A DNA stretch of 41,278 bases from contig NZ_SAYU02000033.1 of NCBI RefSeq assembly GCF_004025965.2, forward strand, positions 1-41,278, in the 5' to 3' direction. Within the stretch, counting starts at the first letter, position 1. Each line of letters begins with the position of its first letter. The stretch comes from Phycicoccus flavus (GTDB lineage: Bacteria > Actinomycetota > Actinomycetes > Actinomycetales > Dermatophilaceae). The position numbers and the translations under genes were made by a program. The notes beneath the pieces were generated by a model. That model did not search any database, was not told the DNA's origin, and was given only the letters and a program-made list of their open reading frames with translations. Positions 1,370-19,473 of the stretch are shown piece after piece.

Positions 1370-1579
1370 TGTCAGAGCCTTCCAGTCAGGCGCTCGACTC
1401 ACCACCACCACTGGAACCAAACCGGGGGGCAGGTCAGTGTCGGCCGAACCGTCAGCAGTCGCGAGTGCAGGCGACGGTCCTGAACGGGCCGTCGAGGGGG
1501 ACGCAGTCGGTCTCGTACAAGCGGAACGGTGGGATCGCACCGCAAGGTGGCCCGGTACGGGCCGTGTTTCGAGGTGACC

Positions 1580-1632
1580 TTGCGTCAGGTACGGGAGGAG
1601 CACTACGTTCGCCTGACTGGACATCAGATGTC
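1580..1632 (+). promoter_or_regulatory. Candidate promoter and operator for the gntR-kinase operon
   Basis: TTGCGT (1580-1585) and TACGTT (1604-1609), 18 bases apart, form a plausible sigma-70-like promoter. Just downstream, GACATCAGATGTC (1620-1632) is a perfect 6-1-6 palindrome ending 18 bases before the TTG start. FadR-type GntR regulators usually bind short palindromes over their own promoter, so this is the best autoregulatory operator candidate. The rest of 1438-1579 shows no recognisable gene. Confidence 0.5.
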
Positions 1633-1650
1633 TGGAAGTGGGAGGCAGCG

Positions 1651-3867: not shown

Positions 3868-3950
3868 TCGTTCATCCACTCGTACCACGTCTCATCCCGC
3901 CGCTCGAGCGCACGCCCTACGGCGTCACCGACTGTTCAAGGAGGAACAGC

Positions 3951-4844
3951 ATGTCGTCCGAACCCACCATCGCCGTCATCGGACTCGGTGCCATGGGGTT
4001 GCCCATGGCGACCCGCCTGGCCGAGAGGTTCACCGTCCGAGGCTACGACCTCGACCCCGAGCGCATCCGAGCGGCGTCCGAGAAGAACGTCGACCCGGCG
4101 GACTCAGCGCGGGCCGCCGCCCAGGACGCAGACTGCGTCCTGCTCGCCGTCCGCAATGGTGCCCAGCTGGAAGACGCGCTCTACGGGGACAACGGCGTCG
4201 CCGAGGTATTGCGCACCGGCAGCGTCGTCGTCCTCACATCCACCATCGGCATCGGTCCGGTGCGCGAGGTCGCCCAGAAGCTGCAGGCCGACGGTATCCA
4301 CCTGGTCGACGCACCGATCTCGGGTGGGCCCAAAAGAGCTGGCGTCGGCGACTTGCTCATCGTGGTCGGCGCGAGCGACGAGGCATACTCAGTCGCCGAA
4401 CCCGTCCTGGAGCACCTGTCCTCCACGCTTCGGCGGATGGGCTCATCTCCTGGTGATGGCCAAGCGATGAAGACGGTGAACCAGCTCCTCTGCGGGGTCC
4501 ACATCGCGGCCGGGGCGGAGGCGCTCGCTCTCGCCGGTGCTCTGGGTCTGGACCAGCGCCTGGTCCTGGAGACCCTGGGCGCCGGCGCAGCAGCGTCCTT
4601 CATGCTCGGCGACCGCGGCCCGAGGATGCTGCAGGCATTCGACGACGGGGGCGCCGAGGTCAACAGCCGCCTCGACATCTTCGTCAAGGACATGGGCATC
4701 GTCAGTTCGGCCGCCCGGGCAGCGGGGCTGGCCACCCCGGTTGCCGGAGCGGCCGAACAGATCTTCCTGCTGGGGCAGGCCGCTGGTCTGGCCGCGGCCG
4801 ACGACTCCTCCGTCATCACCGTCCTGGGCGCGAGGGAGGACTGA
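3951..4844 (+). CDS. ltnD: L-threonate dehydrogenase-like NAD-dependent 2-hydroxyacid dehydrogenase
   Basis: A 297-residue member of the 3-hydroxyisobutyrate dehydrogenase family. The N-terminal Rossmann fold has GLGAMG at residues 11-16, with the substrate loop DAPISGGPKRAG near 120 and the catalytic lysine region AMKTVNQLL near 170. Beside a DUF1537 kinase it is best read as LtnD, which oxidises L-threonate to 2-oxo-tetronate in the LtnD-OtnI-OtnK-OtnC route; D-erythronate- or glycerate-type substrates are possible. The ATG follows AAGGAGG. Its stop is one base before the permease ATG, so the two are co-transcribed. OtnI and a clear OtnC are not adjacent. Confidence 0.75.
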   Translation: MSSEPTIAVIGLGAMGLPMATRLAERFTVRGYDLDPERIRAASEKNVDPADSARAAAQDADCVLLAVRNGAQLEDALYGDNGVAEVLRTGSVVVLTSTIGIGPVREVAQKLQADGIHLVDAPISGGPKRAGVGDLLIVVGASDEAYSVAEPVLEHLSSTLRRMGSSPGDGQAMKTVNQLLCGVHIAAGAEALALAGALGLDQRLVLETLGAGAAASFMLGDRGPRMLQAFDDGGAEVNSRLDIFVKDMGIVSSAARAAGLATPVAGAAEQIFLLGQAAGLAAADDSSVITVLGARED

Positions 4845-4845
4845 C

Positions 4846-6291
4846 ATGGGCTCGACGATGTTGTTCGTGACCGCAGCGGTAGCCGTCGCCGTGCTGCTCC
4901 TGCTGGTGGTCCGGTTCAAACTTCCGGCTTTCGTCTCCCTGCTGTTGGTGTCCATGGGCGCGGCTCTCCTGGCCGGCATTCCGGTGGAGGAGGTTGTCCC
5001 CACCATGATCGCCGGGATGGGCAAGGTGCTCGGCTCGGTCGCGATCGTCGTCGGCCTCGGTTCGGTCCTCGGGCGTCTGATCGAGGTTTCCGGAGGCGCC
5101 GATCACCTGGCGCGCCGGTTCACCGAGCGTCTCGGCCCGGCCCGAGTCACCGTGGCGCTCACAGCGGCGGCATTCGTCCTCGGGATTCCTGTCTTCTTCG
5201 ACGTCGCCTTCATCATCCTGGCCCCGATCGTCTTCGCCTTCGCCAAGATCGCCGGCCTGAACCCCCTCAAGGTCGGACTTCCTGTCGGCGTCGTCCTGCT
5301 CGCCCTGCACGTCACCGTCCCACCCCACCCCGGGCCGGTCGCCGCAGCCGCTGTGACTGGCGCCTCCGTGGGGTTGCTCACCCTCCTCGCCTTGGTGGTC
5401 GGCGCAGCAGCTGGAGCCGTGGGCTTCTTCGCCGCCAGGATCATCAAGGTCGACGGCATCACCCTCGGCCCGTCGCCCGCCACCGCAAGCACCGAGGACG
5501 CGGACGGGGGGACGTCCTTCGCGGACGGGCCCGACACGACCGGGTCCGGAGGGACCGCGACCAAGACCGAGGCGAGGACCGACACCGACAACGCGTCCTC
5601 ACACAACGGCAGCGCCGGCGTGCCGGGCACCGGTACGGTCGTCGGCCTCATCCTGCTGCCGATCGTCATGATCATGGTGGGGTCGGTCCTCACCACGGTC
5701 CTCGGGGAGGACAACGCGCTGGTTCCGTACGCCTCGTTCATCGGCTCGCCGACCACCGCGCTTCTCGTCGGTGTCCTGGTGGCCTACCTGGTCATCGGCT
5801 CTCGGGCCGGATGGGATCGCACCCAGCGCAGCATCGTCGCCGACTCCGCCCTGCCGCTGGTCGCCATCATCATCTTCGTCACCGGAGCCGGCGGGGTGTT
5901 CGCCAACGTCCTCGTCGAGTCGGGGATCGGCAAAGCCCTCACCGACAGCCTCACCGGACTCGGCCTTCCGCTCATCGTCTCGGGGTTCTTGCTCTCGTCT
6001 GCTCTTCGCGCGGCCCAGGGTTCGGCCACCGTCGCCATCCTGACGACGGGAGGCCTCCTTGCCGACGCGATCACCAATGGCGGGTACAGCTCGTTGCAGG
6101 TGGCCCTCATCACCCTGGCCATCGGATTCGGCGGCCTCGGTCTGTCGCACATCAACGACTCCGGGTTCTGGATCGTCACCAAGTACTTGGGTCTGTCCGT
6201 CGCGGACGGCCTACGGACGTGGACGGTCCTGACGACCGTCACTGGCGTGTCAGGCTTCCTCCTCACCGCCCTGATCTTCGCGCTCGCATGA
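4846..6291 (+). CDS. GntP-family gluconate/sugar-acid permease
   Basis: A 481-residue, strongly hydrophobic protein with the GntP hallmarks: an N-terminal membrane block, GIPVFFDVAFIIL, HVTVPPHPGPVAAA, and near the C-terminus SALRAAQGSATVAILT and GLSHINDSGFWIV. GntP carriers are proton-coupled importers of gluconate-like acids, so a C4 acid such as threonate is the likely cargo here. Unusually, a ~55-residue hydrophilic stretch rich in Thr, Asp, Ser and Gly (about 5470-5630) is inserted in the central loop. The ATG at 4846 follows GGGAGGA and lies one base after the dehydrogenase stop. Confidence 0.85.
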   Translation: MGSTMLFVTAAVAVAVLLLLVVRFKLPAFVSLLLVSMGAALLAGIPVEEVVPTMIAGMGKVLGSVAIVVGLGSVLGRLIEVSGGADHLARRFTERLGPARVTVALTAAAFVLGIPVFFDVAFIILAPIVFAFAKIAGLNPLKVGLPVGVVLLALHVTVPPHPGPVAAAAVTGASVGLLTLLALVVGAAAGAVGFFAARIIKVDGITLGPSPATASTEDADGGTSFADGPDTTGSGGTATKTEARTDTDNASSHNGSAGVPGTGTVVGLILLPIVMIMVGSVLTTVLGEDNALVPYASFIGSPTTALLVGVLVAYLVIGSRAGWDRTQRSIVADSALPLVAIIIFVTGAGGVFANVLVESGIGKALTDSLTGLGLPLIVSGFLLSSALRAAQGSATVAILTTGGLLADAITNGGYSSLQVALITLAIGFGGLGLSHINDSGFWIVTKYLGLSVADGLRTWTVLTTVTGVSGFLLTALIFALA

Positions 6292-6337
6292 GCGTGGGGT
6301 GGCTTACGCCCTGACGAAATCGACAAGGAGAAGGCTT

Positions 6338-6832
6338 GTGCAGATGCCGCGTACACCCACGGATTACCCGCTCGACAACGACGGGGGCAACCCCGACGTA
6401 CCCCCGAAGATGCCGTTCTTGCATCTCTGGACCGACTCGGAGGGGAGCAGTCGAATCACGGACTCCCTGATGGGCGGCTTCGCGATGAAGAGCATCGGAG
6501 GTGGCGCCGACCCGCAATGGCTCCGACCGTTCCCGGGTGAGGTTTCGTCGGTCTCCTTCGCGGTACTCCCGGTCGGCTGGGTAGGGCAATGGCACGAGAG
6601 CCCCCACCCGCAGTGGGTGGTCCCCGTGCGCGGCCGGTGGTTCATCGAGACCCAAGACGGGGGACGGGTCGAGATGGGTCCTGGTGACATCCACTTCGGC
6701 CAAGACCAGGACACCGTCGAGAAGGAGGAGCGGCGGGGCCACCTGTCCGGCTGTGTAGGCAACGAGCCCTGTTTCCAGATGCTTGTGCAGTTCGCGCAGT
6801 CTCCGGTGCCTCCGACGCGGCACCCCTTCTGA
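6338..6832 (+). CDS. Cupin-domain protein
   Basis: About 164 residues with one cupin barrel. Motif 1 is WHESPHPQWVVPVRGRWF (two histidines as probable metal ligands) and the region after it holds VEMGPGDIHFGQDQ. The GTG at 6338 lies 7 bases after AAGGAG; an ATG at 6344 is the alternative. The family is too diverse to name a reaction; small cupins in sugar-acid operons are isomerases, mutarotases or sensors of the sugar acid. Its stop overlaps the next start by one base (TGATG), implying translational coupling with the SMP-30 protein. Confidence 0.75.
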   Translation: MQMPRTPTDYPLDNDGGNPDVPPKMPFLHLWTDSEGSSRITDSLMGGFAMKSIGGGADPQWLRPFPGEVSSVSFAVLPVGWVGQWHESPHPQWVVPVRGRWFIETQDGGRVEMGPGDIHFGQDQDTVEKEERRGHLSGCVGNEPCFQMLVQFAQSPVPPTRHPF

Positions 6833-7788
6833 TGGTCACCGGGCCGGTCGTCGTGTCCGGCGCCGGCTCCGCGTCTCCGCTCCGACTGCGAGACCCGGGT
6901 GAGCCGGAGATGCTCGAGCTCCCTGGAGTGCGGGTCGATGACGCACGGCTGGCGGAGGTGCTGGACCCGAGCGCTCGGCTCGTGCGCCTCTATGAGCATG
7001 CAATCTGGTCCGAGGGGCCAGTGTGGTGGCAGCATGAGCGGACCCTGGTCTTCTCCGACGTCCGAGGGCGTCAGGTCCTTGGTCGGCGGGAGAACGGTGC
7101 CGTCGACGTGCTGCTCGACGCCACGCCGTACTGCAACGGCAACGCGGTCACCGCAGACGGCGACCTCGTCCACTGTGAGCACGGCCGGCGCGGAATCAGC
7201 CGGACTCGGCGCGACAGCAACGAGCTGCTCGTGGAGCGATCCGCCGACGGACGGCTGAACTCGCCGAACGACATCGTCGTCGCCCGTGACGGCGCCATCT
7301 GGTTCACCGACCCCGTCTTCGGTCTCACCCAGCCGGAGGAGGGCTTCATGGGGCGGCAAGAGGTCGATCATGAAGGCGTTTACCGGTTCGTCGAGGGTGC
7401 GGCGACCTTGATGGCCACGCTGGACGGACCGAACGGCCTCGGGTTCTCGCCGGATGAGAGAGTGCTCTACGTCTCCCGGACCCCACCGGACGCGGCAGCG
7501 GACATCGTCGCGTTCGACTGGGACGGGCGCCGACTGTCGGGGCGGCGCCACTTCGCTCACGTGGAGCAGGGCATTCCGGACGGGTTCGCCGTCGACGATA
7601 GGGGCTGGCTGTGGTCGAGCTCGCGCACCGGCATCCAGGTCTTCGACGACCGGGGGGCCACTCTGGGACTGGTCCCGGCACCGCACATCGTCAGCAACTG
7701 CACCTTCGACTCGGACCACTCGCGCTTGTTCGTCACCGGCGACGCGGACCTGCTGATGCTGACTCTGGGTCCTGCGTCGCAGCGCTGA
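6832..7788 (+). CDS. SMP-30/gluconolactonase family lactonase
   Basis: A 318-residue six-bladed propeller protein of the SMP-30 family. The usual metal ligands are visible: the glutamate in SEGPVWW, the asparagines in NSPNDIVVARDG and GPNGLGFSPD, and the aspartate in PDGFAVDDRG. Members open aldonolactones using calcium or zinc. In this operon a threono-lactone or another C4/C6 sugar-acid lactone is the natural guess. The start overlaps the cupin stop; an internal ATG at 6910 is possible but has poor ribosome-site spacing. It is the last gene before a bidirectional terminator. Confidence 0.85.
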   Translation: MVTGPVVVSGAGSASPLRLRDPGEPEMLELPGVRVDDARLAEVLDPSARLVRLYEHAIWSEGPVWWQHERTLVFSDVRGRQVLGRRENGAVDVLLDATPYCNGNAVTADGDLVHCEHGRRGISRTRRDSNELLVERSADGRLNSPNDIVVARDGAIWFTDPVFGLTQPEEGFMGRQEVDHEGVYRFVEGAATLMATLDGPNGLGFSPDERVLYVSRTPPDAAADIVAFDWDGRRLSGRRHFAHVEQGIPDGFAVDDRGWLWSSSRTGIQVFDDRGATLGLVPAPHIVSNCTFDSDHSRLFVTGDADLLMLTLGPASQR

Positions 7789-7804
7789 CGGTTCTGGGCG
7801 CAGC

Positions 7805-7848
7805 CCGAGAGGGTGGGGTGACCATGGTCGGCCGCCCCACCCTCTCGG
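7805..7848. terminator. Bidirectional hairpin terminator
   Basis: CCGAGAGGGTGGGG (7805-7818) and CCCCACCCTCTCGG (7835-7848) form a perfect 14-base-pair stem with a 16-base loop. It lies between the convergent SMP-30 and MFS genes. Confidence 0.85.
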
Positions 7849-7858
7849 TGTCGCAGGT

Positions 7859-9220
7859 TCAGATCTTGTCCAGCGAGACGTTGCGCGTCTCCGTGGCGAA
7901 CAGGTAGGTGACGCCGCCGATGACGAGCAGCAGAGAGAAGAGCCAGAAGGCGGTCGGCACCGCGTTGAGTGTCACGTTGACGTCGATCATCGAGCCGCCG
8001 ATGAGAGCCCCCATCAGCGCCGGGCCGAAGATCTTGGCCGTCGAACCGATGCCGTAGCCCAGGCCGAGCCCGGTGGAGCGCGCCTCGTTCGGGAACTGCT
8101 CGGCACCGAAAGCATTGAGGATGCCGAACGCCCCGTCACCGAAGGCCATCGCGACGAGGATACCGACGAAGAACATCGTCGCGTTGGCCTGCGTCGCCGC
8201 GACGGCGCAGATCCCGGCGCCGACGGCCCCGATGAGCCCGAAGGAGAACATGACCAGCCGTCGTCCGACGATGTCGGCGAGCCAGGCCGAGCCGAGACGA
8301 CCGGCGACATCAGCCAGCGCCACCCAGGTGAACAGCACCCCGACATAGGCGGCGTCGTAGCCGAAACCGTCCTTGAGCAAGGTCTGCCCCCAGGACTGGA
8401 TGGTGAAGGACCCGAGGATGAAGCAGAAGGAGCCGATGGTGATGATCGTCAGCTGCTTCTTGTACTTGTCGAAGATCAATCCGTACGAGGAGCGCGCCGG
8501 CTTCTCGTACGTCGGGAGCTCACCCACCTCGTCGGGTCGGATCATCATCGCCCAGGCCAGCGACTCGCGGGCCTCCTCCAACCGGCCCTTGGCCTGCAGG
8601 TACCGCGGGGACTCGGGCACGAGTCGGAGCCACAGCAGCAACAGGATCGGGATGATGCCGAGAGCGACCATCCCCCGCCAGCCGATCGTGGGCCCGATCC
8701 ACTTCTGGGCCTGGGCTCCGAGCAGCAGACCGGCCGGGATGAAGACCGATGCAAGCCCGGCAAGGAGCCCTCGCTGCTTGGCCGGCACGAACTCCTGGAC
8801 GTAGGGGATCGAGCTGATGTTCAGTCCGCCGACACCGATGCCCACGCCGATGCGGCACAAGGCCAGGAACCACCATCCGCGGTCGGGCGTCAGCAGCATC
8901 ACCGCGGTGAAACCCACGAAGGAGACCACACACCACCAGAAGGTCCGCTTGCGACCGATGACGTCGGCGAGACGGCCCCACATGATCGCACCCAGCACAG
9001 TGCCGAGGCCGGAACAGGCCAGGATGACTCCGGCCTCGACGCCCGTCAGGTTCCACGGCTTCGTCAGCAGCGCGACGACGAAACCGATGAGGAACATGTC
9101 GAAGAACTCGCTGATGTTGCCGGTGACAACCAGGCCGATGAGGCTCTTCTGGTTGCGGGTCAACGGCCTTCCGTCGATCTGCTCGGTCGCCGTTGGCGTC
9201 CGGGGATCTGTCGCGGTCAT
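7859..9220 (-). CDS. MFS metabolite/H+ symporter (sugar or sugar-acid permease)
   Basis: About 453 residues and 12 membrane segments, with the MFS motif GRLADVIGRKR between TM2 and TM3, a matching ADIVGRR in the second half, and PESPRYL after TM6 as in sugar and acid symporters. The start is uncertain: ATG at 9220 has an AAAGG 11 bases upstream, while a GTG at 9229 is too close to it. The gene follows the PfkB kinase by about 80 bases on the same strand, so import is probably paired with phosphorylation by that kinase. The substrate is not shown by sequence; ascorbate or a related acid is proposed from context only. Confidence 0.8.
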   Translation of the reverse strand: MTATDPRTPTATEQIDGRPLTRNQKSLIGLVVTGNISEFFDMFLIGFVVALLTKPWNLTGVEAGVILACSGLGTVLGAIMWGRLADVIGRKRTFWWCVVSFVGFTAVMLLTPDRGWWFLALCRIGVGIGVGGLNISSIPYVQEFVPAKQRGLLAGLASVFIPAGLLLGAQAQKWIGPTIGWRGMVALGIIPILLLLWLRLVPESPRYLQAKGRLEEARESLAWAMMIRPDEVGELPTYEKPARSSYGLIFDKYKKQLTIITIGSFCFILGSFTIQSWGQTLLKDGFGYDAAYVGVLFTWVALADVAGRLGSAWLADIVGRRLVMFSFGLIGAVGAGICAVAATQANATMFFVGILVAMAFGDGAFGILNAFGAEQFPNEARSTGLGLGYGIGSTAKIFGPALMGALIGGSMIDVNVTLNAVPTAFWLFSLLLVIGGVTYLFATETRNVSLDKI

Positions 9221-9300
9221 GGGTGTCACTGCCTTTCGTGTCAGGTTGGGCCGGCGAGTGCTGGCGTTGTCGTGCCGGGCTTGTCGCGCGGTCGTGGGGT

Positions 9301-10248
9301 TCAGCGCAGGATGTCGGTGCTCTGCGGGTCGGCGCCGAGCTCCTCCGCGGTGACATGGGTGAGGTCACCGTGATGCGTGAGAGCGAACTTCGAGACGTGG
9401 AGGCCGTGGCCGATGCCGCCGACGATGTCGCCGCTCAGGAAGCCGTGCAGAGTGCCCGCGACGAAGGCGTCGCCGGCGCCCGGCCGGTCGACGATGGGCA
9501 CAGTTCGGACCTCGAAGTCCTGCTCACCGTCCGGACCGGCGTAGTAGACGCCGTCCGTGGAGTCCGTGGAGACGACGTGGGTGGCTCCGAACATCTCCCG
9601 GAGGGCCAGCGAGGCCTCGGCGCCAGGCGCGTTGATATCGAAGACGACCCGTGCGTCGGTTCGTGAGCAGAAGATGATGCTCGAACGTTCTGCGATCCAC
9701 CCGAGCCTTCGGCGTGCCTGAGTGGGCGACCACAACAGGCTGCGGTAGTTGACGTCGAGCGCGACGTCGATGCCGCTGTCGTGCGCGAGGCTCACGAAGT
9801 GCCGGAGCGTCTCGTAGGTCTGGTCCGTCAAGGCTGCGGTGATGCCGGTGACGAACACCAGACGGGTCGAGAGCAGGACGTCCCAGTCGACCATCTCTGG
9901 AGTGATCGTGCGGAACGGGGAGTGGGTGCGGTCGTAGCTGACTCGCGATGGCATCGGGGGCTGTCCCGGCTCCATGAAGTACAGCGCCATCCGACCCTCG
10001 TCGGTGCGAAGCATCGCCGACATGTCCACCCCGACGGAGCGGAACTCCGACAGACAGCGTTCGGCCAGATCACCTCGCGGCACTCGTGAGCACCAGGAGG
10101 TTCGGTGGCCCAGCTGGGCCAGCAGGCCGGAGACGTTGGCCTCGGAGCAGGCAGCCGAGACTCTCAGGGTGTTGCAGCGGGACAGCCGCTCGCCCTGGGC
10201 CACCGTCAGCCGGATCTGTCCTTCGCCGATGGTCGTCAGGTCGAACAT
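9301..10248 (-). CDS. PfkB-family carbohydrate kinase (KdgK-like)
   Basis: A 315-residue ribokinase/PfkB protein. The N-terminal substrate region has SEANVSGLLAQLG, like the GAEANVA signature of 2-keto-3-deoxygluconate kinases. The C-terminal active site is DRPGAGDAFVAGTL, with the catalytic Asp and the GAGD anion hole. The ATG at 10248 has a strong AAGGAGAAG; the frame's first ATG 8 codons upstream is ignored. It heads a minus-strand pair with the MFS permease and is divergent from the SorC regulator. The substrate may be a keto-deoxy sugar acid. Because ula-type genes lie downstream without a phosphotransferase, it is also the only sugar kinase in this block able to feed UlaG. Confidence 0.85.
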   Translation of the reverse strand: MFDLTTIGEGQIRLTVAQGERLSRCNTLRVSAACSEANVSGLLAQLGHRTSWCSRVPRGDLAERCLSEFRSVGVDMSAMLRTDEGRMALYFMEPGQPPMPSRVSYDRTHSPFRTITPEMVDWDVLLSTRLVFVTGITAALTDQTYETLRHFVSLAHDSGIDVALDVNYRSLLWSPTQARRRLGWIAERSSIIFCSRTDARVVFDINAPGAEASLALREMFGATHVVSTDSTDGVYYAGPDGEQDFEVRTVPIVDRPGAGDAFVAGTLHGFLSGDIVGGIGHGLHVSKFALTHHGDLTHVTAEELGADPQSTDILR

Positions 10249-10492
10249 TGAGCTTCTCCTTTGAAGACGCAACCCGAGTCGGCGGGTGGCTCTGAACCGT
10301 GGTGAGGCGGGACGGATGGTGTGTGAAGAGAATGTCTACCGAAGGTGCTGGCCATCGCCGGCCGGTCCCGGCACATTCGTGCTCCGCCGGAGGAGTGTCC
10401 GCGCTCGACGCCTTCCGCGACCTGCTAAATGCTGGCAAAATGCAGGAAGCCGCGCCGCGTCCGTCGGCGCGTCAGGACAGAATCGAGAACGG
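10249..10492. promoter_or_regulatory. Divergent promoter region between pfkB-type kinase and SorC regulator
   Basis: This 244-base gap must carry promoters for both directions. An AT-richer patch at 10423-10444 (TGCTAAATG ... GGCAAAATGCA) contains a near-direct repeat, AAATGC / AAATGC, and is the most operator-like sequence here. A GACGGAT heptamer at 10311-10317 matches one half of the perfect palindrome at 14418-14433. No definite -35/-10 pair was found. Confidence 0.35.
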
Positions 10493-11464
10493 ATGTGCGC
10501 CGCACGGGGACCGGTCTCGGACCGGTCACGACTCGATCTCCTGCATCGGGTGGCTCGGATGTACTACCTCGAGGATGCATCCCAGGACGACATCGCCCGG
10601 ACGGTCGGCTACTCCCGGCCGACCGTCAGCCGAATGTTGACCGAGGCGCGACAGTCCGGCATGGTCCACATCAGCATCAGCGAGCCTGCCGCCGGCTCCA
10701 TGGACGAGGAACGCCGCCTGCGCGAGGTTTACGGTCTCGAGGTCGCTCTCGTGGCGGCGGTCGAGCCGAGGACACAGCCTGCCGAGGCGGTAGCCCGGCT
10801 GGCCTCCCTCGCCGTGGCGGAGCGGGGCAACGAACGGTCGATGATCGCGCTGTCCAACGGCACCTCCCTGCGCGCCTTCGTCCACGCGATGCCGCGCCAG
10901 CGATGGAGCTACTCCGGAGTCATTCAGATGGTCGGGTCCATCGGCTCCGGCGACCCTCTGCTGGCTGACAGCCCCGAGCTGTGCCGATCCCTCGCCGCGC
11001 GGCTGGGCGGCACCTTCCGCCCACTGCCCGTGCCCCTGGTCCTGGGATCGACGGAGGTGGCGCGCTCGATGCGTCAGGAGGAGGTCGTTCTCACGTCTTT
11101 GGAGCTGGCAGCCCGCTCCGACATCGCGTTGCTCGGAGTCGGAGCCATCGATCACCGAGGACACCCTGGCCCGATCCTCGGGCCGTTCATGGGTTCAGCC
11201 CAGACCAACGAGCTCCGTAGAGTCGGCGCCGTCGCGCACTTGTGTGGACATTTCTTCGATGCCAAGGGCCGGCACCTGCGTACCTCGCTCTGCGAGCGGA
11301 CCATGGCGATGGAGCCGGAACGGCTGGCGGGAATCGGACTGGTCATGGCGATGGCGTGGGGCACCGACAAAGTTCCGGCGATCGCCGCCATCCTCAAGGC
11401 GGGACTCATCACGGGACTGGCCACCGACCAGTCGACGGCCCGGCTACTTCTGGACTACGCCTGA
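10493..11464 (+). CDS. SorC/DeoR-type sugar-binding transcriptional regulator
   Basis: From ATG 10493, 323 residues. The N-terminal helix-turn-helix is typical of the SorC/CggR group (LLHRVARMYYLEDASQDDI, GYSRPTVSRMLTEAR). Residues ~75-320 form the sugar-phosphate-sensing domain (ALSNGTSLRAFV, IALLGVGAIDH, GHFFDAKG, AAILKAGLITGLATDQ). Such regulators usually respond to a phosphorylated pathway intermediate. It lies between a kinase-permease pair and a second permease, close to the UlaG gene, so it probably controls this whole sugar-acid block. The frame is open to 10286, but there is no ribosome site there. The chosen ATG has only a weak AGGA about 16 bases upstream. Confidence 0.8.
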   Translation: MCAARGPVSDRSRLDLLHRVARMYYLEDASQDDIARTVGYSRPTVSRMLTEARQSGMVHISISEPAAGSMDEERRLREVYGLEVALVAAVEPRTQPAEAVARLASLAVAERGNERSMIALSNGTSLRAFVHAMPRQRWSYSGVIQMVGSIGSGDPLLADSPELCRSLAARLGGTFRPLPVPLVLGSTEVARSMRQEEVVLTSLELAARSDIALLGVGAIDHRGHPGPILGPFMGSAQTNELRRVGAVAHLCGHFFDAKGRHLRTSLCERTMAMEPERLAGIGLVMAMAWGTDKVPAIAAILKAGLITGLATDQSTARLLLDYA

Positions 11465-11493
11465 CCTCCATCGCGATGGGGTAGGAATGGGCC

Positions 11494-12996
11494 GTGAAGA
11501 CCAACACGGGTCGCCAAGACCACGGGATTCGCGGCCGGTACGGCCCGGTAGTGCTGACCACGTTGCTGGCACTGGTGCCCTACCTGGTGGCCACCTCGGC
11601 CCTCCGCCTGTTGGGCGACGGGCTCGCGGCCGACCTGTCTGTCTCGTCGGGCTTCGTGGACGTCACCCAGTCGATGGCGACGGCGATGTACGCCTTCGGA
11701 GCGCTGCTGGCCGGAGACCTGGGTCGGCGGTTCCCCCAGCGCCCGACCTACCTTGTTCTCATCGCACTGGCGCTCGTCGGGTGGCTTCTGGCGCTCGGGT
11801 TGCTGGGTGCGTGGTCCTTCGCTGTGGGCTTCGTGCTTGTCGGCCTGACGACCGGCCTCCTGCTGATCGTCTCGCTGCCCCCGGCGATCCAGAGATTCCC
11901 GGCGGCGAAGGTGCCAATGACAGCGGTGTTTGTCAACGTGGGTCTCTTCGGTGGGGTTGCGGGGGGCCCGCTCGCCGCCGGTATTGTCGACCGGTTCGGC
12001 GGCTGGCGCGTCCTCTTCGCTGTCCTGGCGCTGACGACGGCGCTCGCTGTGGTGCTCGGCGCCTCGGTGCTGGAGCGGACACCGGCCATGGCGCCCGACC
12101 TGGTGGCCGATCCCCCGGTGGTGGTCCTGGCGCTGGTCGCGACGGTTCTCGCGTTCGGCGCGGTGGCGTTGCTGCCGTCAGTCGGCTTCGTCTCTCCGTG
12201 GTTTTTCGCGCCCTTGCTCGTCGGGCTCACTGCTTTTGCGGCGATCTTCATCGTTGAGGACCGCCGCCGCGAACCTCTTGTCGCCGTCGGTCTGCTGATC
12301 CGCACCGCTCCGGTGATCGGGACACTCGTGGCGTCCTTCGCCGGAGGCGTCTTTCTGTCGCTGGTGAGTCTCACCCAGCTGCGTATGGTCACTCTCTGGG
12401 GTCTTGATCCGGGTCGGGTCGGTCTCGACCTGTGGCCACTCGTACCCGGTGCGCTACTGGCTGCCGTCACCCTCGGGCTGGTGTTCAGGACGCGCTACCT
12501 GCCCGTCCTGATCCTCTTCGGGCTGGTGGCGATGATCCTCGCAGGTCTGGTCTTGATGAGCACTGGACTCCCCGAGGACCTCGGCCGAAGTCAGCTGGCT
12601 CTCGGTGCTCTGGGGTTCGGTGCGGGAGCCACGGTCAGCCCGGCCCTCTTCCTCGCAGGTCTGTCGACGCCCTCGGCCGCTCTCGGTCGGATCTTCGCGT
12701 TCGTCGAGCTCGTCCGGTCGATCGGTGACTTCCTCATCGGTCCCGTGCTGGTGCAGTTCGCCGCCCTGATCTCTGCCGACGGGGCCGCACAGGAGCGGCA
12801 GGTCGCCATCACCCTCGGCATCGCGGTCACGATCGGGGTCGGCACACTGTTCGTCTGCACTGTCGCATTCCTTGCCTCCTACCGCCGGCTCCCCGTGCCG
12901 GACCTGTCCCGCTGGCTCGACGGTGACGACCCGGCCATCGAGAGCCCGGGAGCGTTCCGGGGCGCTCAGGATCGGGACGACTCGGTGGTCGGGTAG
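11494..12996 (+). CDS. MFS transporter, 14-helix DHA2-like
   Basis: A GTG at 11494 with GGTAGGA upstream gives 500 residues with about 14 predicted membrane helices. Motif A is GALLAGDLGRRFPQR, and the TM5 region GGVAGGPLAAGIVDRFGGWR resembles antiporter motif C as in drug:H+ antiporters. It follows the SorC regulator by 30 bases, so it is probably its operon partner. By sequence it resembles exporters of the EmrB/QacA type, but its setting in a sugar-acid cluster leaves metabolite uptake or efflux of a toxic intermediate open. Confidence 0.75.
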   Translation: MKTNTGRQDHGIRGRYGPVVLTTLLALVPYLVATSALRLLGDGLAADLSVSSGFVDVTQSMATAMYAFGALLAGDLGRRFPQRPTYLVLIALALVGWLLALGLLGAWSFAVGFVLVGLTTGLLLIVSLPPAIQRFPAAKVPMTAVFVNVGLFGGVAGGPLAAGIVDRFGGWRVLFAVLALTTALAVVLGASVLERTPAMAPDLVADPPVVVLALVATVLAFGAVALLPSVGFVSPWFFAPLLVGLTAFAAIFIVEDRRREPLVAVGLLIRTAPVIGTLVASFAGGVFLSLVSLTQLRMVTLWGLDPGRVGLDLWPLVPGALLAAVTLGLVFRTRYLPVLILFGLVAMILAGLVLMSTGLPEDLGRSQLALGALGFGAGATVSPALFLAGLSTPSAALGRIFAFVELVRSIGDFLIGPVLVQFAALISADGAAQERQVAITLGIAVTIGVGTLFVCTVAFLASYRRLPVPDLSRWLDGDDPAIESPGAFRGAQDRDDSVVG

Positions 12997-13010
12997 GACG
13001 ATTTGGCAAA

Positions 13011-13053
13011 GGCGGGGCGGGGCGAACGAGCCTCACCTCGCCCACCCCGCCCC
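13011..13053. terminator. Hairpin terminator between convergent genes
   Basis: GGGGCGGGG near 13015 pairs with CCCCGCCCC at 13045-13053, extended by CGAG/CTCG closer to the loop with a few mismatches. It lies between the ends of the MFS gene and the minus-strand UlaG gene. Confidence 0.65.
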
Positions 13054-13094
13054 TTCTCGGCGCGCGTCGGCGTCGAGCCTGACGACGGACGACG

Positions 13095-14159
13095 TCAGAG
13101 GAAGGCGTCGTACGGCAGCTCGTGCTCGCAGCTGAAGACGTCCGAGAAGCCGCGAGGGTAGTGGTACCGCAGGTCGTCCTTGTTCTCGGGGAAGACGAAC
13201 TTTCCCCCGACCTGCCAGATGTAGGGCTGGAAAACGTACTTCAGCGCGTGTCGCTTCATCTCCCAGAGCGTCACGATCTCCTCAGGGTTGGCCATGAAGT
13301 TCGACCAGATGTCGTGGTGGAAGGGAATGACGACCTTGGTCTGCAGGCCCTCGGCCATCCGAAGCATGTCCGCTGCAGTGAGCTTGTCGGTGATCCCGCG
13401 GGGGTTCTCGCCGAAGGCACCCATGGCCACGTCGATGTCGTGTTCGTTGCCGTGCTTGGCGTACATGTTCGAGTAGTGCGAGTCGCCGCCGTGGTACAGC
13501 GAGCCTCCTGGGGTCTTGATGATCCAGTTGACTGCGAGGTCGTCCATGTCCGCCACCGGCCGGCCCTTGGTTTCGACGTCCTCCGGCTGGGTGATGAGCA
13601 TGGTGCGGTCGAAGGACTCGACGACGTGGATCTCGGTGTCCTTGACGGGCACCACGTCACCGGGGCGGACGGTGATGCACCGGTCCGCGGGTACCCCCCA
13701 CTTCTGCCACAGGTCGGTGGCGGACTTCGGCCCTACGAAAGGAACGGTGGGCTCACAGTTCTGCAGAACCGCTGCCGCGACGTTGGCGTCGATGTGGTCG
13801 GTGTGGGTGTGCGTGGCCAGGACGGCGTCCACCGTCCGGATCGCGAACGGGTCGATGACGAAGGGGGAGAGGCGAAGGTTCGGCTGCAGCTTGCGGACAC
13901 CGGACATGCGCGCCATCTGGTGACGAGCGACCATGTCAGCGGTCTTCTGGGTGCGCTTGCCGGAGCCCGCCCAGAGATCGATGAGGATGTTGGCGTCGCC
14001 CTCGGACTTCACCCAGATGCCGGTGTTACCCAGCCACCACATGGCGAACGTCCCGGGGGAGACCTGCGCTTCCTCGATCTCCTCGTTCAGCCACGTCCCC
14101 CACTGGGGGAACGTCGACAGGATCCATGACTCACGGGTGATGTCGGATACGTTCGTCAC
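13095..14159 (-). CDS. ulaG: L-ascorbate-6-phosphate lactonase UlaG
   Basis: A 354-residue metallo-beta-lactamase-fold protein recalled to align closely with E. coli UlaG over its whole length: [20 protein letters not shown] at the start, [34 protein letters not shown], the metal motif HTHTDH (residues ~116-121, H-x-H-x-D-H), [33 protein letters not shown] and [12 protein letters not shown]. UlaG opens the lactone ring of L-ascorbate 6-phosphate to give 3-keto-L-gulonate 6-phosphate in the cytoplasm. The start is GTG at 14159 with GAGAGGA about 9 bases upstream. It is divergent from the UlaD/E/F-like genes. Because its known substrate is already phosphorylated, the absence of UlaABC nearby is the main puzzle. 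Confidence 0.92.
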
Positions 14160-14417
14160 TGCACTGTGTCCTCTCGTCGTCGCCGGCCCGCGAGTCGGGT
14201 CCTGCTCGGTCCGTACCGTGGCGGCTGCCGCAATCGTCGGGCAATCGGACGAACGCCCGCTCCTCGCTATACGGCGCCGCAGATGCGGCTCCGTGAATGG
14301 TGCCGGTCATCCGGGCACGCTCGCCGGATCTGGTGCACTTTCGTGCACGAGGTGTCCTCGCGTACCGGTACGGCGTGAGCAACGCAGAGCCTTTGACGAT
14401 GTCATCGCACAGATGTG

Positions 14418-14433
14418 CTGACGGATCCGTCAG
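14418..14433. promoter_or_regulatory. Perfect 16-base palindrome, candidate operator
   Basis: CTGACGGATCCGTCAG is symmetric over all 16 bases without a spacer and lies in the middle of the divergent ulaG / ulaD-like control region. Its half GACGGAT recurs at 10311-10317 near the SorC regulator. Confidence 0.5.
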
Positions 14434-14505
14434 TTGGCGCGCCCCCGGGGATGCCGATCGCAAGCCGGTGCCGCCGACGTCGGCCGAGGACGCCCTGATT
14501 GAACA

Positions 14506-14522
14506 GGTGTGAACGTCACACC
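14506..14522. promoter_or_regulatory. Perfect 7-3-7 inverted repeat, candidate operator
   Basis: GGTGTGA-ACG-TCACACC. It looks CRP-like (TGTGA/TCACA), but the spacer is 3 bases, not the 6 expected for CRP-type sites, so another regulator is more likely. It lies about 225 bases upstream of the ulaD-like start. Confidence 0.45.
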
Positions 14523-14745
14523 CCTGTCCGAGGCACCGTCGAGGCGTGCTTCTGGGCTCTGTGGTGCTCGAAGGGCCAGCTCGATCCGACTGTGGGCACA
14601 CATGTTCATGAGCCGTTCCTGACTGCCGAGTCCTGCTCCTAGGTTCGTCGCCTCACGTCCATTCCTCCCGGTTGGCCCACCGTTCCACGGTTGTGCCACC
14701 CGTACCGATGGAGGCGGCAGACGCACCGACACGCAGGAGATTCCG

Positions 14746-15408
14746 ATGACTCACCTCCCCCGGCCACGGCTGCAGCTGGCCCTCGACATGACCGACCTCT
14801 CGAGCGCGCTTCGGCCTCTCAACAAGGCGGTGAGCCAGGTGGATGTGATCGAGTGCGGCACCGTCCTGGTCCTCGGCGAAGGACTCCGGGCGGTTCGCGA
14901 GGTCCGGGCCCTCTATCCCGACAAGGTCGTTCTCGCCGACGTTCGCATCGTCGAGGCCGGCTCCATCATCGCCAAGCACTGCTTCGATGCGGGGGCCTCC
15001 TGGGTCAGCGTGGTCGCCGGCGCCTCCCTGACCACGGTGGAGCAGGTGGTCACCGTGGCCGAAGACCACGGGGGAGAGGTCCAGGTGGAGCTCGGCGAGA
15101 GCTACGACGTCGAGCAGGCTCGACGCTGGCGCGACCTTGGCGTGCAGCACGTCATCGTCAAGCGATCGAGGGACAAGGAGGCGGCCGGATCACTCACGTG
15201 GGGCGAGCAGGACGTCGATCGGGTCGGAGAGCTCGCCGGCCTGGGTCTGACCGTGACGATCACCGGCGGTGTCACCGTGAAGGACCTCGAGACCTTCCAG
15301 GGCGCACCGGTGGGGGTGGTCATCGCCGGTCGGTCGATCGTCGAAGCGGAGGACCCGCTTGCCGCTGCCACCGAGCTGCAGGACGAGCTGGCCCGGGTGT
15401 GGGCGTGA
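14746..15408 (+). CDS. UlaD-like 3-keto-L-gulonate-6-phosphate decarboxylase family protein with altered active site
   Basis: A 220-residue TIM barrel of the OMP-decarboxylase suprafamily that follows E. coli UlaD along its length (LQLALDMTD, VDVIECGTVLVLGEGLRAV, YPDKVVLAD, WGEQDVDRV, TVTITGGVT, VVIAGRSI). UlaD decarboxylates 3-keto-L-gulonate 6-phosphate to L-xylulose 5-phosphate. The suprafamily motif DxKxxD, read as DAKIAD in UlaD, is here DVRIVE (codons 14938-14955), so the catalytic Lys is Arg and the second Asp is Glu. The UlaD His136 region (YHRSRD) is KRSRD here, so His is Lys. Asp11-, Glu33-, Glu112- and Arg139-equivalents remain. This points to a diverged subfamily with changed chemistry or substrate. 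The ATG has AGGAG 7-8 bases upstream. The stop overlaps the next GTG (GTGA). Confidence 0.85.
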   Translation: MTHLPRPRLQLALDMTDLSSALRPLNKAVSQVDVIECGTVLVLGEGLRAVREVRALYPDKVVLADVRIVEAGSIIAKHCFDAGASWVSVVAGASLTTVEQVVTVAEDHGGEVQVELGESYDVEQARRWRDLGVQHVIVKRSRDKEAAGSLTWGEQDVDRVGELAGLGLTVTITGGVTVKDLETFQGAPVGVVIAGRSIVEAEDPLAAATELQDELARVWA

Positions 15409-16283
15409 GCGTCATCGCTTCCGGTGGCACCGGGACTCCGTGCTGCGAGGTCGTCCTCGGGATCTACGAGAAGGCCTTGCGGTGGACGGGCGACTGGGAC
15501 CGGCTGTTCCGTCAGGCCAAGGACGCCGGGTTCCGTTTCGTCGACCTGTCGGTGGACGAGTCGACCGAACGGAGGGCCCGCTTGCACTGGCCGCCCCACA
15601 AGAGGATCGAAGTCCGTGACGCTGCGGCTCGCAACGGCATCGCCATCGGCGGGGTGTGTCTGTCGGTGCACCGCGCGGTCGGCCCCGGATCGGCGGACCC
15701 GGCAGTGGCCGACGAGGCCGACCAGATTTTCGAGCAGGGCATTCGCCTCTGTGCTGACCTCGGGGCACCGGTTCTGCAGGTGGCGGGCTACTACGCCTTC
15801 TACGAGTCGCCGGATCCCGGTCAGCGGGACCGCTATGTCGCCTCTCTGCGACGAGCGGTTCCCAAGGCGGCTCGCGCCGGCGTCCTGCTCGGCATCGAGA
15901 ACGTCGACGGCGCGGACGTCACCTCGCTGACCCGCGCCATGGAGCTGGTACGCGAGATTGACTCGCCCTGGCTGCAGCTGTATCCGGATGTGGGCAACAT
16001 CGCCGAGCAGCGACTCGACGAGGAGGTTGAACTCCGGGCCGGGGCAGGCCACATGCTGGCCATCCACGTCAAGGACGTCAGGGTGGGTGAACCTCGCCGA
16101 GTGCCTATGGGCGACGGCGTGGCTGATTTCGACAAGGCCTTCGCCGAGCTGGCCCGACAGCGGTGGAGCGGCCGGATGATGGTCGAGATGTGGAACGACG
16201 ACGCGGACGACTCTGTCGAGCGTTGTGTGGCGGCGCGGCTGGTGGTCGAGAAGCACCTCGATGCCGCGGGTATCCGCCACTGA
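15405..16283 (+). CDS. ulaE: L-xylulose-5-phosphate (L-ribulose-5-phosphate) 3-epimerase UlaE
   Basis: A 292-residue AP-endonuclease-like TIM barrel resembling UlaE/SgbU: LGIYEKALRWTGDWDRLF, FRFVDLSVDEST, GGVCLSVHRAVGPGS, LQVAGYYAFYESP, LQLYPDVGNIAEQR, AIHVKDVRVGE. The four metal ligands of the family can be placed in GIENVD (Glu), YPDVGN (Asp), IHVKD (His) and VEMWND (Glu). It would convert L-xylulose 5-phosphate to L-ribulose 5-phosphate. The GTG start overlaps the preceding stop, so it is translationally coupled to the UlaD-like gene. The match to UlaE is strong despite the altered UlaD-like enzyme upstream. Confidence 0.88.
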   Translation: MSVIASGGTGTPCCEVVLGIYEKALRWTGDWDRLFRQAKDAGFRFVDLSVDESTERRARLHWPPHKRIEVRDAAARNGIAIGGVCLSVHRAVGPGSADPAVADEADQIFEQGIRLCADLGAPVLQVAGYYAFYESPDPGQRDRYVASLRRAVPKAARAGVLLGIENVDGADVTSLTRAMELVREIDSPWLQLYPDVGNIAEQRLDEEVELRAGAGHMLAIHVKDVRVGEPRRVPMGDGVADFDKAFAELARQRWSGRMMVEMWNDDADDSVERCVAARLVVEKHLDAAGIRH

Positions 16284-16349
16284 GCTATGTCCCCTGATAT
16301 CGCCGAGGTCGGTTCGGCCCCCGGCACCCGATCAAGAGAGGGAAGCACC

Positions 16350-17018
16350 ATGTTGGATGACTTGAAGGAGCAGGTGTGCGCAGGGAACCTCGCCCTCGCA
16401 GAGGCCGGGTTGGTGGCCTGGACGGGCGGGAACCTGTCGGCGCGGGACGAGGATCGGGAGATGATCGTCATCAAGCCCTCGGGAGTTCTGTATTCCGCCA
16501 TGACACCCAAGGACATGGTCGTCGTCTCCTACGACGGCCACGTCGTCGAGGGTGACCACGGCCCGTCGTCGGACACTCAGTCCCACCTGGGGATCTATGC
16601 CGGCCGAGCCGATGTCCAGTCGGTGGTGCACACCCACTCTCGCTACGCGACAGCGTTCGCTGCGGTCGGCCGGGAGATTCCTTGCTGCCTCACCGCGATC
16701 GCCGACGAGTTCGGTGGGCCGGTGCCGTGCGGCGGGTACGCCTCCATCGGAGGCGACCAGATCGGCAAGGAGGTCATTGCGAAGATCGGTCGCTCGCCTG
16801 CCATCCTCATGCAACAGCACGGGGTGTTCACTATCGGGCCCTCCATCTCGAAGGCCCTGCAGGCAGCGGTCATGGTCGAGGACGTCGCTCACACGGTGGC
16901 GGTGGCGATGGGCCTCGGAGAGGTCACCTCTTTGCCCCAGGAAGAGATCGAGGCGAACTTCGACCGCTACAGCAACCGCTACGGCACAATGTCGGCGAGC
17001 CACGGAGTCACCGCCTGA
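16350..17018 (+). CDS. ulaF: L-ribulose-5-phosphate 4-epimerase (UlaF/AraD type, class II aldolase family)
   Basis: A 222-residue zinc enzyme of the AraD/UlaF family: MLDDLKEQVCAGNLALAEAG, GGNLSARD, VIKPSGVLYSAM, SSDTQSH, the metal motif VVHTHSRYATAF (two His), and the third His in QQHGVFTIG. The AraD catalytic Asp aligns with IADEFGG. It would convert L-ribulose 5-phosphate to D-xylulose 5-phosphate, which enters the pentose phosphate pathway. The ATG at 16350 has GAGGGA at a normal distance; the in-frame ATG at 16287 has no ribosome site. OtnC, the missing decarboxylase of the threonate route, belongs to the same superfamily, so OtnC activity is a minor alternative. Confidence 0.85.
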   Translation: MLDDLKEQVCAGNLALAEAGLVAWTGGNLSARDEDREMIVIKPSGVLYSAMTPKDMVVVSYDGHVVEGDHGPSSDTQSHLGIYAGRADVQSVVHTHSRYATAFAAVGREIPCCLTAIADEFGGPVPCGGYASIGGDQIGKEVIAKIGRSPAILMQQHGVFTIGPSISKALQAAVMVEDVAHTVAVAMGLGEVTSLPQEEIEANFDRYSNRYGTMSASHGVTA

Positions 17019-17139
17019 CGAGCCCTGCGCGCGCCCTCCTGCAGCCCATCGCCAGAACTCTCTGCGCCGCCCAGCGCGGTGCTATCGAGGGTGCAGCTCT
17101 ACGGCCACTGAGCATTCCACGGGGCTCGAACACACCAGA

Positions 17140-17176
17140 CGATGGGCCCCGTCGCTCCTGGCGACGGGGCCCATCG
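17140..17176. terminator. Bidirectional hairpin terminator
   Basis: CGATGGGCCCCGTCGC (17140-17155) and its exact complement (17161-17176) form a perfect 16-base-pair stem with a 5-base loop between the convergent ulaF-type gene and katG. Confidence 0.9.
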
Positions 17177-17214
17177 TGCCGACGAGGGAGCGGCTATACG
17201 TCGAACCGGGAGCG

Positions 17215-19473
17215 TCAGCCCTTCGTCACGTCGTACCGGTCGGCCATCATGACCTTGTCCCACACGGCGACGAAGTCGCGGACGAAAAGCTCGCCACCGT
17301 CACAGCCGGCGTAGACCTCGGAGATCGCCCGCAACTGCGAGTTCGCTCCGAACAGCAGGTCGTTGCGCGAGGCTTCGAACTTCGACTCGCCCGTGGCGCG
17401 GTCATCGACCGTGAACGAGGTGCCGGCCTCGTCGACCTTCGTCCACTCGTAGTCCATGGAGGTGACGACGTCGAAGAAGTCGGTCGAGAGCGTGCCAACT
17501 CGGTCGGTGAAGATCCCAACCGTCGACCCATCGTGATTGCAGCCGAGCGCGCGTAGCCCACCGGTGAGCGCCACCCACTCGGGGGCGGAAAGATTGAGCA
17601 GTGCAGCCCGGTCGAGGAACATCTGCTCGGGAGAGACCTTCGAGACCGACGAGAACTCCGGCATCACGTAGTTACGGAAACCGTCGACGACCGGCTCGAG
17701 CCACGCGTGCTGCTCGGGGTCGGTCTGCTCCTGGAGCGCATCGACCCGGCCCGGGGTGAACGGCACCGTCACCGGGTGACCGGCGGATGCGGCGGCCTGC
17801 TCGACGGCCACGCAGCCACCAAGGACGATGAGGTCAGCCAGGCTGACGTTGAGCCCGGACGACGCCTTGACCTGCGTAAGCCGGTCCACGACCTCTCCGG
17901 TCCGGACGTTGACCTTCCAGTCCTTCTGCGGTTCCAGCGCCAGGCGCGCCCCGTTGGGTCCGCCGCGCTTGTCGGTGTCGCGGTAGGTGGCAGCCGAGGA
18001 GAACGCGGTGAACGCCAGGTCCGACACCGACAGCCCAGTGTCCAGGATCGCCTGCTTCAGCGTTCCGATCTCGGACTCACCGACGACCGGACCCTCGTGC
18101 GGCGGCAGCGGGTCCTGCCAGAGGAAGTCCTTCTCGGCGACCTCCGGTCCGAGGTAGCGCGACTTCGGCCCCATATCGCGGTGGGTGAGCTTGTACCAGG
18201 CTTCCGAGAACGCCTTGGTGAAGTAGTCGAAGTCGTCGAGGAAGCGCAAGCAGATCTCGCGGTAGACCGGATCCACCTTGAGGGCGATGTCCGAGGTCAT
18301 CATCATCAGGTGGTTCATCTGGCCCTCGACGTGCGCGTCGGGGGTCTTCGGGGCGTCCGGGTCGACCGGCCGCCACTGGGTCGCGCCGGTGTGGGGGTTC
18401 TCGTGCTTCTCCCACTCGAACCTGAACAGATTCGTCAGGTAGTCGTTGTCCCACTGCGTGGGGTTCGGCGTCCAGGCACCCTCGATGCCGTTGGTCATCG
18501 TGTATTCGGCGAAGCCCTTGCCCTCCGGATTGCTCCAGCCGAGGCCTTGGTCTTCCATCGGCGCGATCTCCGGCGGTGGGCCGATCTTGCCCGCCGCGAC
18601 CTTCCCGTGGCTCTTGCCGAAAGCGTGCCCGCCCGCGATGAGTGCCACGGTCTCTTCGTCGTTCATCGCCATCCGCGCGAAGGTGATGCGGATGTCGATG
18701 GCCGAGTCCCGCGGATTGCCGTTCTCGTTCGGGCCCTCGGGGTTGACGTAGATGAGTGCTTGGTGCGAGGCAGCGAGCGGCTGCTCCAGTTCGTAGTCAC
18801 TGTCGCCAGGCTGCCCGTTCCAGCGCTGCGAGCGCATCACCATCGCATCGAAGGACTCCGGATGGGAGTTCTCGATCCACTCCGGGCCCCAGTACGTCGC
18901 ATCGTCGGCCTCCCAGGAGTCGCGGCGGCCGCCGCCGAACCCAGTCGTCGGCAGACCCATGATCTCGAGCGCACAGTTGCCGGTCAGGACCATGAGATCG
19001 GCCCAGCTGATCGCGTTCCCGTACTTCTTCTTGATCGGCCACAGCAGGCGTCGTGACTTGTCGGTGTTGCCGTTGTCCCACCACGAGCTGATGGGGGCGA
19101 AGCGCTGCATGGCTTGCCCCGCCCCACCGCGACCGTCTGCGATGCGGTAGGTACCGGCGGCGTGCCACGCCATCCGGATCATCTGCGGGCCGTAGTTGCC
19201 GTAGTCGCTCGGCCACCAGTCGACCGAGGTCGTGAGGAAGTCCTTGATGTCGGTCTTGAGCTCATCGAGGTCGATCCCGGAGAACGCCGTCTCATAGTCG
19301 AAGTCGGCGAGCGGGTCGGCCACGACACCGTCGGAGTGCAGCTGCTCGACCCGCAGTCGGTCCGGGTACCAGTCCGAGAGCGTGGGCTTGGAGGTGAACG
19401 CCCCACCCACGGTGTCGCCACCGAACGGGCATTTGCCGCCCAGCACCTCGGAGTATTCAGAATACTCAGGCAT
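17215..19473 (-). CDS. katG: Catalase-peroxidase KatG
   Basis: A 752-residue bifunctional heme catalase-peroxidase of usual length. The N-terminal domain shows the distal [11 protein letters not shown] (Arg-Trp-His), LIYVNPEGP with the tyrosine and ARMAMND with the methionine of the Met-Tyr-Trp adduct, and the proximal histidine in [10 protein letters not shown]. The C-terminal non-heme peroxidase repeat is complete ([16 protein letters not shown] to the end). It removes hydrogen peroxide. The ATG at 19473 has GGAAAGG about 9 bases upstream; the frame runs open to 20079 but that part is antisense to the sensor kinase. No furA gene precedes it, unlike many actinobacterial katG genes. Codons 3-8 contain a perfect palindrome. 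Confidence 0.95.
19451..19467. promoter_or_regulatory. 17-base palindrome inside the first codons of katG
   Basis: GAGTATTC-A-GAATACTC is a perfect 8-1-8 inverted repeat, AT-rich against its surroundings. It encodes the repeated residues EYSEYS of KatG. Its position suits a repressor site or an mRNA hairpin close to the start codon. Confidence 0.5.

Follow-up and report, generated by a model that had tools for sequence, protein, structure and literature searches.

The 41,278-nt stretch of Phycicoccus flavus DNA analysed here (contig NZ_SAYU02000033.1; the window) carries a block of genes resembling the ula genes for L-ascorbate catabolism in Escherichia coli. Homologs of UlaG, UlaE and UlaF as well as a UlaD-like protein, which an earlier note on this DNA had described, were all located in the block by profile scores and by matches to the E. 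coli proteins. The gene at 13095–14159 (minus strand) encodes UlaG, L-ascorbate 6-phosphate lactonase, with a score at equivalog level (NF008688, 620 bits, cut-off 306) and 67% identity to the E. coli protein. A UlaD-like decarboxylase (14746–15408, plus strand; 44% identity) scores under the cut-offs of both PRK13306 (243 bits, cut-off 250) and the model for UlaD proper (216 bits, cut-off 294). It is followed on the same strand by UlaE, L-xylulose/L-ribulose 5-phosphate 3-epimerase (15405–16283; PRK13209, 318.9 bits, cut-off 317; 37% identity; start codon uncertain), and UlaF, L-ribulose 5-phosphate 4-epimerase (16350–17018; PRK06557, 309 bits, cut-off 251; 42% identity).

The other genes of the block encode a permease of the major facilitator superfamily, designated MFS1 and predicted to import ascorbate (7859–9220, minus strand; PF07690 and PF00083), a PfkB-family kinase predicted to be an L-ascorbate 6-kinase (9301–10248, minus strand; PF00294, 88.6 bits, cut-off 25.8), a sugar-sensing regulator of the SorC type (10493–11464, plus strand; PF04198, 162 bits) and a second permease, MFS2 (11494–12996, plus strand; PF07690, 51.9 bits). 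The earlier note had placed two permeases, the kinase and the regulator in the block, and all of them are present, but MFS2 is not part of the conserved set. It was matched in the window only, one of 83 loci carrying the kinase, so that the two permeases do not form a set, and it weakly resembles drug-efflux models (TIGR00880, 29 of 131 bits). A shared operator in the two intergenic regions was not found, as the best 20-mer match was 15 of 20 and shuffled sequences gave 14–16.

Concerning the phosphotransferase system (PTS), no gene for it is visible in the block, as the earlier note had remarked; E. coli UlaA, UlaB, UlaC, UlaR, PtsH and PtsI had no match in the window at E≤1e-5. The draft genome (4.26 Mb in 153 contigs, 98.4% complete, 2.85% contamination) was also searched at E≤0.001 for the EIIC-GAT family, to which UlaA-type EIIC proteins belong, and for the N-terminal domain of PTS enzyme I, the search being confined to these two. 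Neither was found; the earlier note had named co-regulated UlaABC genes elsewhere in the genome as evidence against its own proposal. The same searches were positive in 4 of 14 (EIIC-GAT) and 7 of 14 (enzyme I) control genomes. With both lacking, a PTS cannot start the pathway here, unless its genes fall in the portion of the genome that the draft does not cover.

Judging from sequence, we consider it probable that the block is a PTS-free locus for L-ascorbate catabolism, in which the PfkB-family kinase makes L-ascorbate 6-phosphate. In the proposed pathway, MFS1 would import unmodified ascorbate, and the kinase would transfer a phosphate from ATP to O6, the step that would be new. UlaG, a member by sequence of a family known for this reaction, would open the lactone to 3-keto-L-gulonate 6-phosphate, which the UlaD-like enzyme is predicted by homology to decarboxylate to L-xylulose 5-phosphate; UlaE and UlaF, again by homology, would convert this to D-xylulose 5-phosphate. 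The SorC-type protein probably regulates the block. The chain from L-ascorbate 6-phosphate to D-xylulose 5-phosphate would thus be that of the E. coli ula regulon (ulaG, ulaABCDEF), with which the block shares UlaG, UlaE, UlaF and a UlaD homolog. It differs in that MFS1 and the kinase stand in for UlaABC, with EIIC-GAT and enzyme I lacking from the genome, in that SorC replaces UlaR, and in that the decarboxylase carries the motif DxRxxE instead of the E. coli-type DxKxxD. Uptake of free ascorbate (or a close relative) followed by phosphorylation through the PfkB protein had likewise been proposed in the earlier note. This prediction is supported by the lack of EIIC-GAT and enzyme I in the genome and by the comparisons described below: the kinase and MFS1 are linked to ula genes, the kinase and ulaABC do not overlap at the UlaG loci examined, and two unrelated lactonases of types acting on phosphorylated lactones alternate beside the kinase family.

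UlaG is rare among the relatives of P. flavus. A strong match was present in one of 12 genomes of the genus, that of P. flavus itself, with weak matches in ten and none in one. At E≤1e-60, UlaG was found in 3 of 186 genomes of the family (P. flavus, G033 and G034) and in 2 of 396 of an order sample (P. flavus and G264). The UlaG searches in Actinomycetota led to four loci with the kinase (the window, G033, G034 and G264) and three with ulaABC and without the kinase (G760, G875 and G932). UlaG was present in 12 of 398 pseudomonadotal genomes, 11 of which have UlaABC and no kinase, while the twelfth, G963, lacks UlaABC and has the kinase. As this search was centred on G963, which had been picked for its kinase, that genome was left out of the tally, which covers Actinomycetota and Pseudomonadota. 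As a result, 14 ulaABC loci without the kinase stand against four kinase loci without ulaABC, and no mixed locus occurred in the fetched stretches. Seven active-site positions of UlaG are identical in all 12 kinase-linked and all 15 PTS-linked proteins, the window protein agreeing with that of E. coli at these positions.

The distribution of the kinase itself was examined with a scan of named genomes by kinase alignment, from which the best 80 of 85 confirmed loci were used. Together with G033, G034 and the window these make 83 loci; G264 and L104 are the same contig and were counted once. In a tblastn screen, ulaD lay within the fetched stretch in 78 of the 80 named loci, which represent two phyla, and in the two loci without it (L028 and L039) the contig begins partway through the cluster. 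Over the 83 loci, matches were found to UlaD in 81, to UlaE and MFS1 in 76 each, and to SorC and UlaF in 70 each, some of the UlaF matches being distant class II aldolases of down to 32% identity. The actinobacterial hosts include Actinomyces, Arachnia, Cutibacterium, Bifidobacterium, Corynebacterium, Arcanobacterium and Austwickia, and the alphaproteobacterial hosts Pleomorphomonas and Acetobacteraceae. G033 and G034 have a compact run of ulaD-ulaE-ulaF-pfkB-MFS1-ulaG with a divergent SorC gene; neither MFS2 nor ulaABC was found in 18 kb, and each genome carries an EIIC-GAT protein several hundred kb from the cluster. In G264, a kinase of 38% identity occurs together with UlaG (75%), SorC, ulaD and ulaE. 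An Opp-type ABC transporter lies between them, and the stretch gave no match to MFS1 or UlaF. The type of importer thus varies beside a constant kinase. In Ornithinimicrobium cavernae (L102, 11778–15675), which has no MFS1 match, genes resembling an ABC transporter of the 2-aminoethylphosphonate/polyamine type adjoin the kinase cluster and perhaps represent a third kind of importer.

Most kinase clusters lack UlaG. Instead, a gene for an amidohydrolase of the phosphotriesterase (PTE) fold sits between the SorC gene and ulaD. Among the 83 loci, the PTE-fold protein was found in 68 and UlaG in 12, with both in one; counted over 84 rows, in which one locus appears twice (L025 and L104), 67 have the PTE protein only, 12 UlaG only, one both and four neither. 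Three of the last (L028, L039 and L072) are truncated where their contigs end. The fourth, from Actinomyces haliotis (L056, 8600–13000), has a PTE match of just 96 residues and an incomplete UlaD, and this cluster may be decaying or misassembled. The row with both is from a member of the Propionibacteriaceae (L078, 10000–18000), in which UlaG and the PTE protein both lie beside the kinase, possibly a state between the two lactonase types.

The primary structure of the PTE proteins was compared with known lactonases. Six proteins scanned matched the phospho-furanose lactonase model NF045706 best, at 244–281 bits and under the cut-off of 630, and also matched PF02126. The nearest solved structures were 3msr/3ovg, followed by 3pnz. 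We take 3msr/3ovg to be the phospho-furanose lactonase of Mycoplasma synoviae, with Lys217, Lys244, Tyr245, Arg275 and Tyr278 of 3ovg presumably binding the phosphate. Residues of these types occur at those places in the structure alignment with an offset of two, and the aligned positions in the PTE proteins (R265, K291, Y292, K322 and Y325), which keep the residue or exchange Lys and Arg, are invariant in 68 of 68 proteins (69 were found, and the L056 piece was dropped). By eye, 3pnz keeps the set in the same alignment (R, K, Y, R, Y), whereas the first, second and fifth of these residues are missing from E. coli PHP (1bf6). These features led us to predict that the PTE-fold protein is a phospho-lactonase which takes the place of UlaG in most relatives of the cluster, with ascorbate 6-phosphate as its substrate, unlike the M. 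synoviae enzyme. The best explanation for two unrelated types of phospho-lactonase alternating beside one kinase would be that L-ascorbate 6-phosphate is the product of the kinase. As UlaG acts on a phosphorylated lactone, the PTE proteins carry a phosphate-binding signature, and the conserved candidates for the preceding steps are a transporter and the kinase, phosphorylation of ascorbate by the kinase is the simplest reading.

The lactonases appear to have been exchanged. In a tree of 27 UlaG proteins, the 12 kinase-linked members fall in two places. Two of them, from the window and from G264, share a group with the UlaGs of E. coli and of eight more pseudomonadotal genomes, which are PTS-linked (support 99/98), and the remaining ten stand apart. 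A single clade of kinase-linked UlaGs was rejected (p 0.005, with sparse sampling and a midpoint root). In the kinase tree, a quick tree of 78 rows and three outgroups with long-branch warnings for L104 and L100, from which five rows with insufficient lactonase data or length had been dropped, the lactonase states require at least three changes, and a single clade of UlaG-bearing kinases was likewise rejected (p 6.6e-05). Since neither the kinase-linked UlaGs nor the UlaG-bearing kinases form one clade, the pairing of kinase and UlaG arose more than once. The window kinase clusters with PTE-linked kinases (8 of 9 rows of the smallest starred set), so that in this lineage UlaG may have taken over from a PTE protein. 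Within the family of P. flavus, one kind of kinase cluster occurs with either lactonase type, G018 having the PTE version with SorC, ulaD, ulaE, ulaF, the kinase and MFS1. A PTE-family protein was not found in the P. flavus genome, and a search for a remnant in positions 7001–18000 of the window was negative (best E 0.12). On balance we favour, with somewhat less confidence than for the locus itself, the broader view of a widespread, ATP-driven and PTS-free pathway, defined by a family of PfkB L-ascorbate 6-kinases, in which UlaG and PTE lactonases have been exchanged more than once, and whose decarboxylase uses DxRxxE in place of the DxKxxD of its suprafamily.

The kinase was examined with regard to what else it might phosphorylate. 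It belongs to the PfkB family by its PF00294 score and GAGD motif, and scores under the cut-off of every NCBIfam kinase model that it matched. E36, N38, R107 and R169 are kept in 83 of 83 kinases and Y105 in 82; the catalytic Asp of GAGD is found in 81, the other two having a gap. Several observations here and in the following paragraph weigh against the proposed pathway. The best NCBIfam match of the window kinase is the model for 2-keto-3-deoxygluconate (KDG)/2-keto-3-deoxygalactonate kinase, although at 199 bits it is well under the equivalog cut-off of 440, and the ula-linked kinases share with KDG kinases, besides fold family and catalytic Asp, the Tyr/Arg/Arg set (Y105, R107 and R169) that we take to bind the acid group there. 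KDG is bound by its kinase as an open-chain acid, with a shape nearer to 3-keto-L-gulonate than to ascorbate. The NCBIfam match could be read to mean that the kinase is a chance neighbour serving an unrelated sugar acid such as KDG. This is very improbable: ulaD lies in the same stretch in nearly all the named loci of both phyla, and the ula-linked kinases form a single clade separate from six KDG-kinase-like outgroups (support 100/97), which have at most 37% identity to the kinase and include two annotated KDG kinases and a third that adjoins a KDPG (2-keto-3-deoxy-6-phosphogluconate) aldolase gene. The likeness to KDG kinases and the retained acid-binding set give some weight to the main alternative, in which ring opening of free ascorbate by the lactonase comes first and the PfkB protein acts as a 3-keto-L-gulonate 6-kinase. 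A 3-keto-L-gulonate kinase does exist in E. coli, LyxK, which belongs to another family. We nevertheless regard this order of steps as unlikely, since the UlaG family is named for a phosphorylated lactone, the PTE proteins without exception keep the five positions presumed to bind phosphate, and two unrelated lactonases would both have to work without the phosphate.

The remaining points concern genes other than the kinase. A UlaE match is absent in 7 of the 83 loci and a UlaF match in 13; some of these are cut by contig ends, but others, including L080, L081 and L076, are not cut short. Of 50 kinase-bearing genomes examined, 23 have an EIIC-GAT protein elsewhere and 27 have none, and PTS-type uptake of ascorbate elsewhere in some of the 23 could still occur. 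In Bifidobacterium psychraerophilum (L084, 16500–18800), weak matches to UlaA, UlaB and UlaC (27–38%) lie about 4 kb past MFS1. The decarboxylase differs at two motif positions, which could signal a shifted substrate: all 80 kinase-linked UlaD proteins that could be aligned there have DxRxxE (DVRIVE in the window), and none of 12 PTS-linked proteins does, all of them having DxKxxD. These counts derive from 81 kinase-linked proteins, of which the L056 piece is gapped at the motif, and from 15 PTS loci, 3 of them without a match to UlaD. At position 136, 54 of the 81 have Lys and 26 have His, with one gap. A UlaD search of 396 Actinomycetota at E≤1e-30 matched only P. flavus itself and G018, both kinase-linked. 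The motif probably reflects one ancestral change, not many. The altered motif would also suit a pathway whose kinase and decarboxylase were tuned to a compound closely related to ascorbate, either a different lactone or a stereoisomer. We consider this improbable, less likely still than ring opening before phosphorylation, because UlaG joined the kinase more than once with its seven checked positions unchanged, and because UlaE and UlaF, required only for an L-xylulose 5-phosphate product, are kept in most of the loci.

In a literature search with most subscription journals outside its scope, neither an ascorbate kinase nor an account of the kinase cluster was found in the material consulted, which included passages of PMC3219644 and PMC3534718, the latter giving counts of PTS families only. 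What is predicted to be new from these comparisons is thus the entry step, ATP-dependent phosphorylation of ascorbate, to an otherwise known ula pathway. If the proposal is correct, it would add an ATP-dependent ascorbate kinase activity that the search did not turn up, a second ascorbate 6-phosphate lactonase, unrelated to the first, and a decarboxylase whose catalytic motif is changed, and it would extend ascorbate catabolism to PTS-free bacteria and to Actinomyces, Cutibacterium, Bifidobacterium and Arachnia.

Further searches concerned the occurrence of the kinase and UlaG. The kinase had no match at E≤1e-30 in four congeners tested, and no phage copies were found at the same threshold. 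Among plasmids, UlaG was present in 26 records, and kinase relatives in 55, all of less than 60% identity. Around a kinase relative from Thermomicrobium (37%), no ula genes are annotated over a distance of about 7 kb.

Outside the block, a peroxidase frame (PF00141; 17215–20079, minus strand) follows directly. Bases 10000–42349 of another contig of the assembly (C83) correspond to window positions 1–32350 in reverse, with 100% identity over the 32,350 bases compared. The region is thus present twice in the assembly, which likely represents redundancy, with a true duplication as the alternative. On the other side of the block lies a probable C4-acid cluster (1306–7788), in which GntR/FCD regulator and DUF1537-type kinase domains share one frame, and which also encodes a GntP permease, an SMP-30 lactonase and an L-threonate dehydrogenase-like protein (244 bits, cut-off 350). 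The oxidation of ascorbate yields L-threonate, and a C4-acid cluster beside the block would fit with this.

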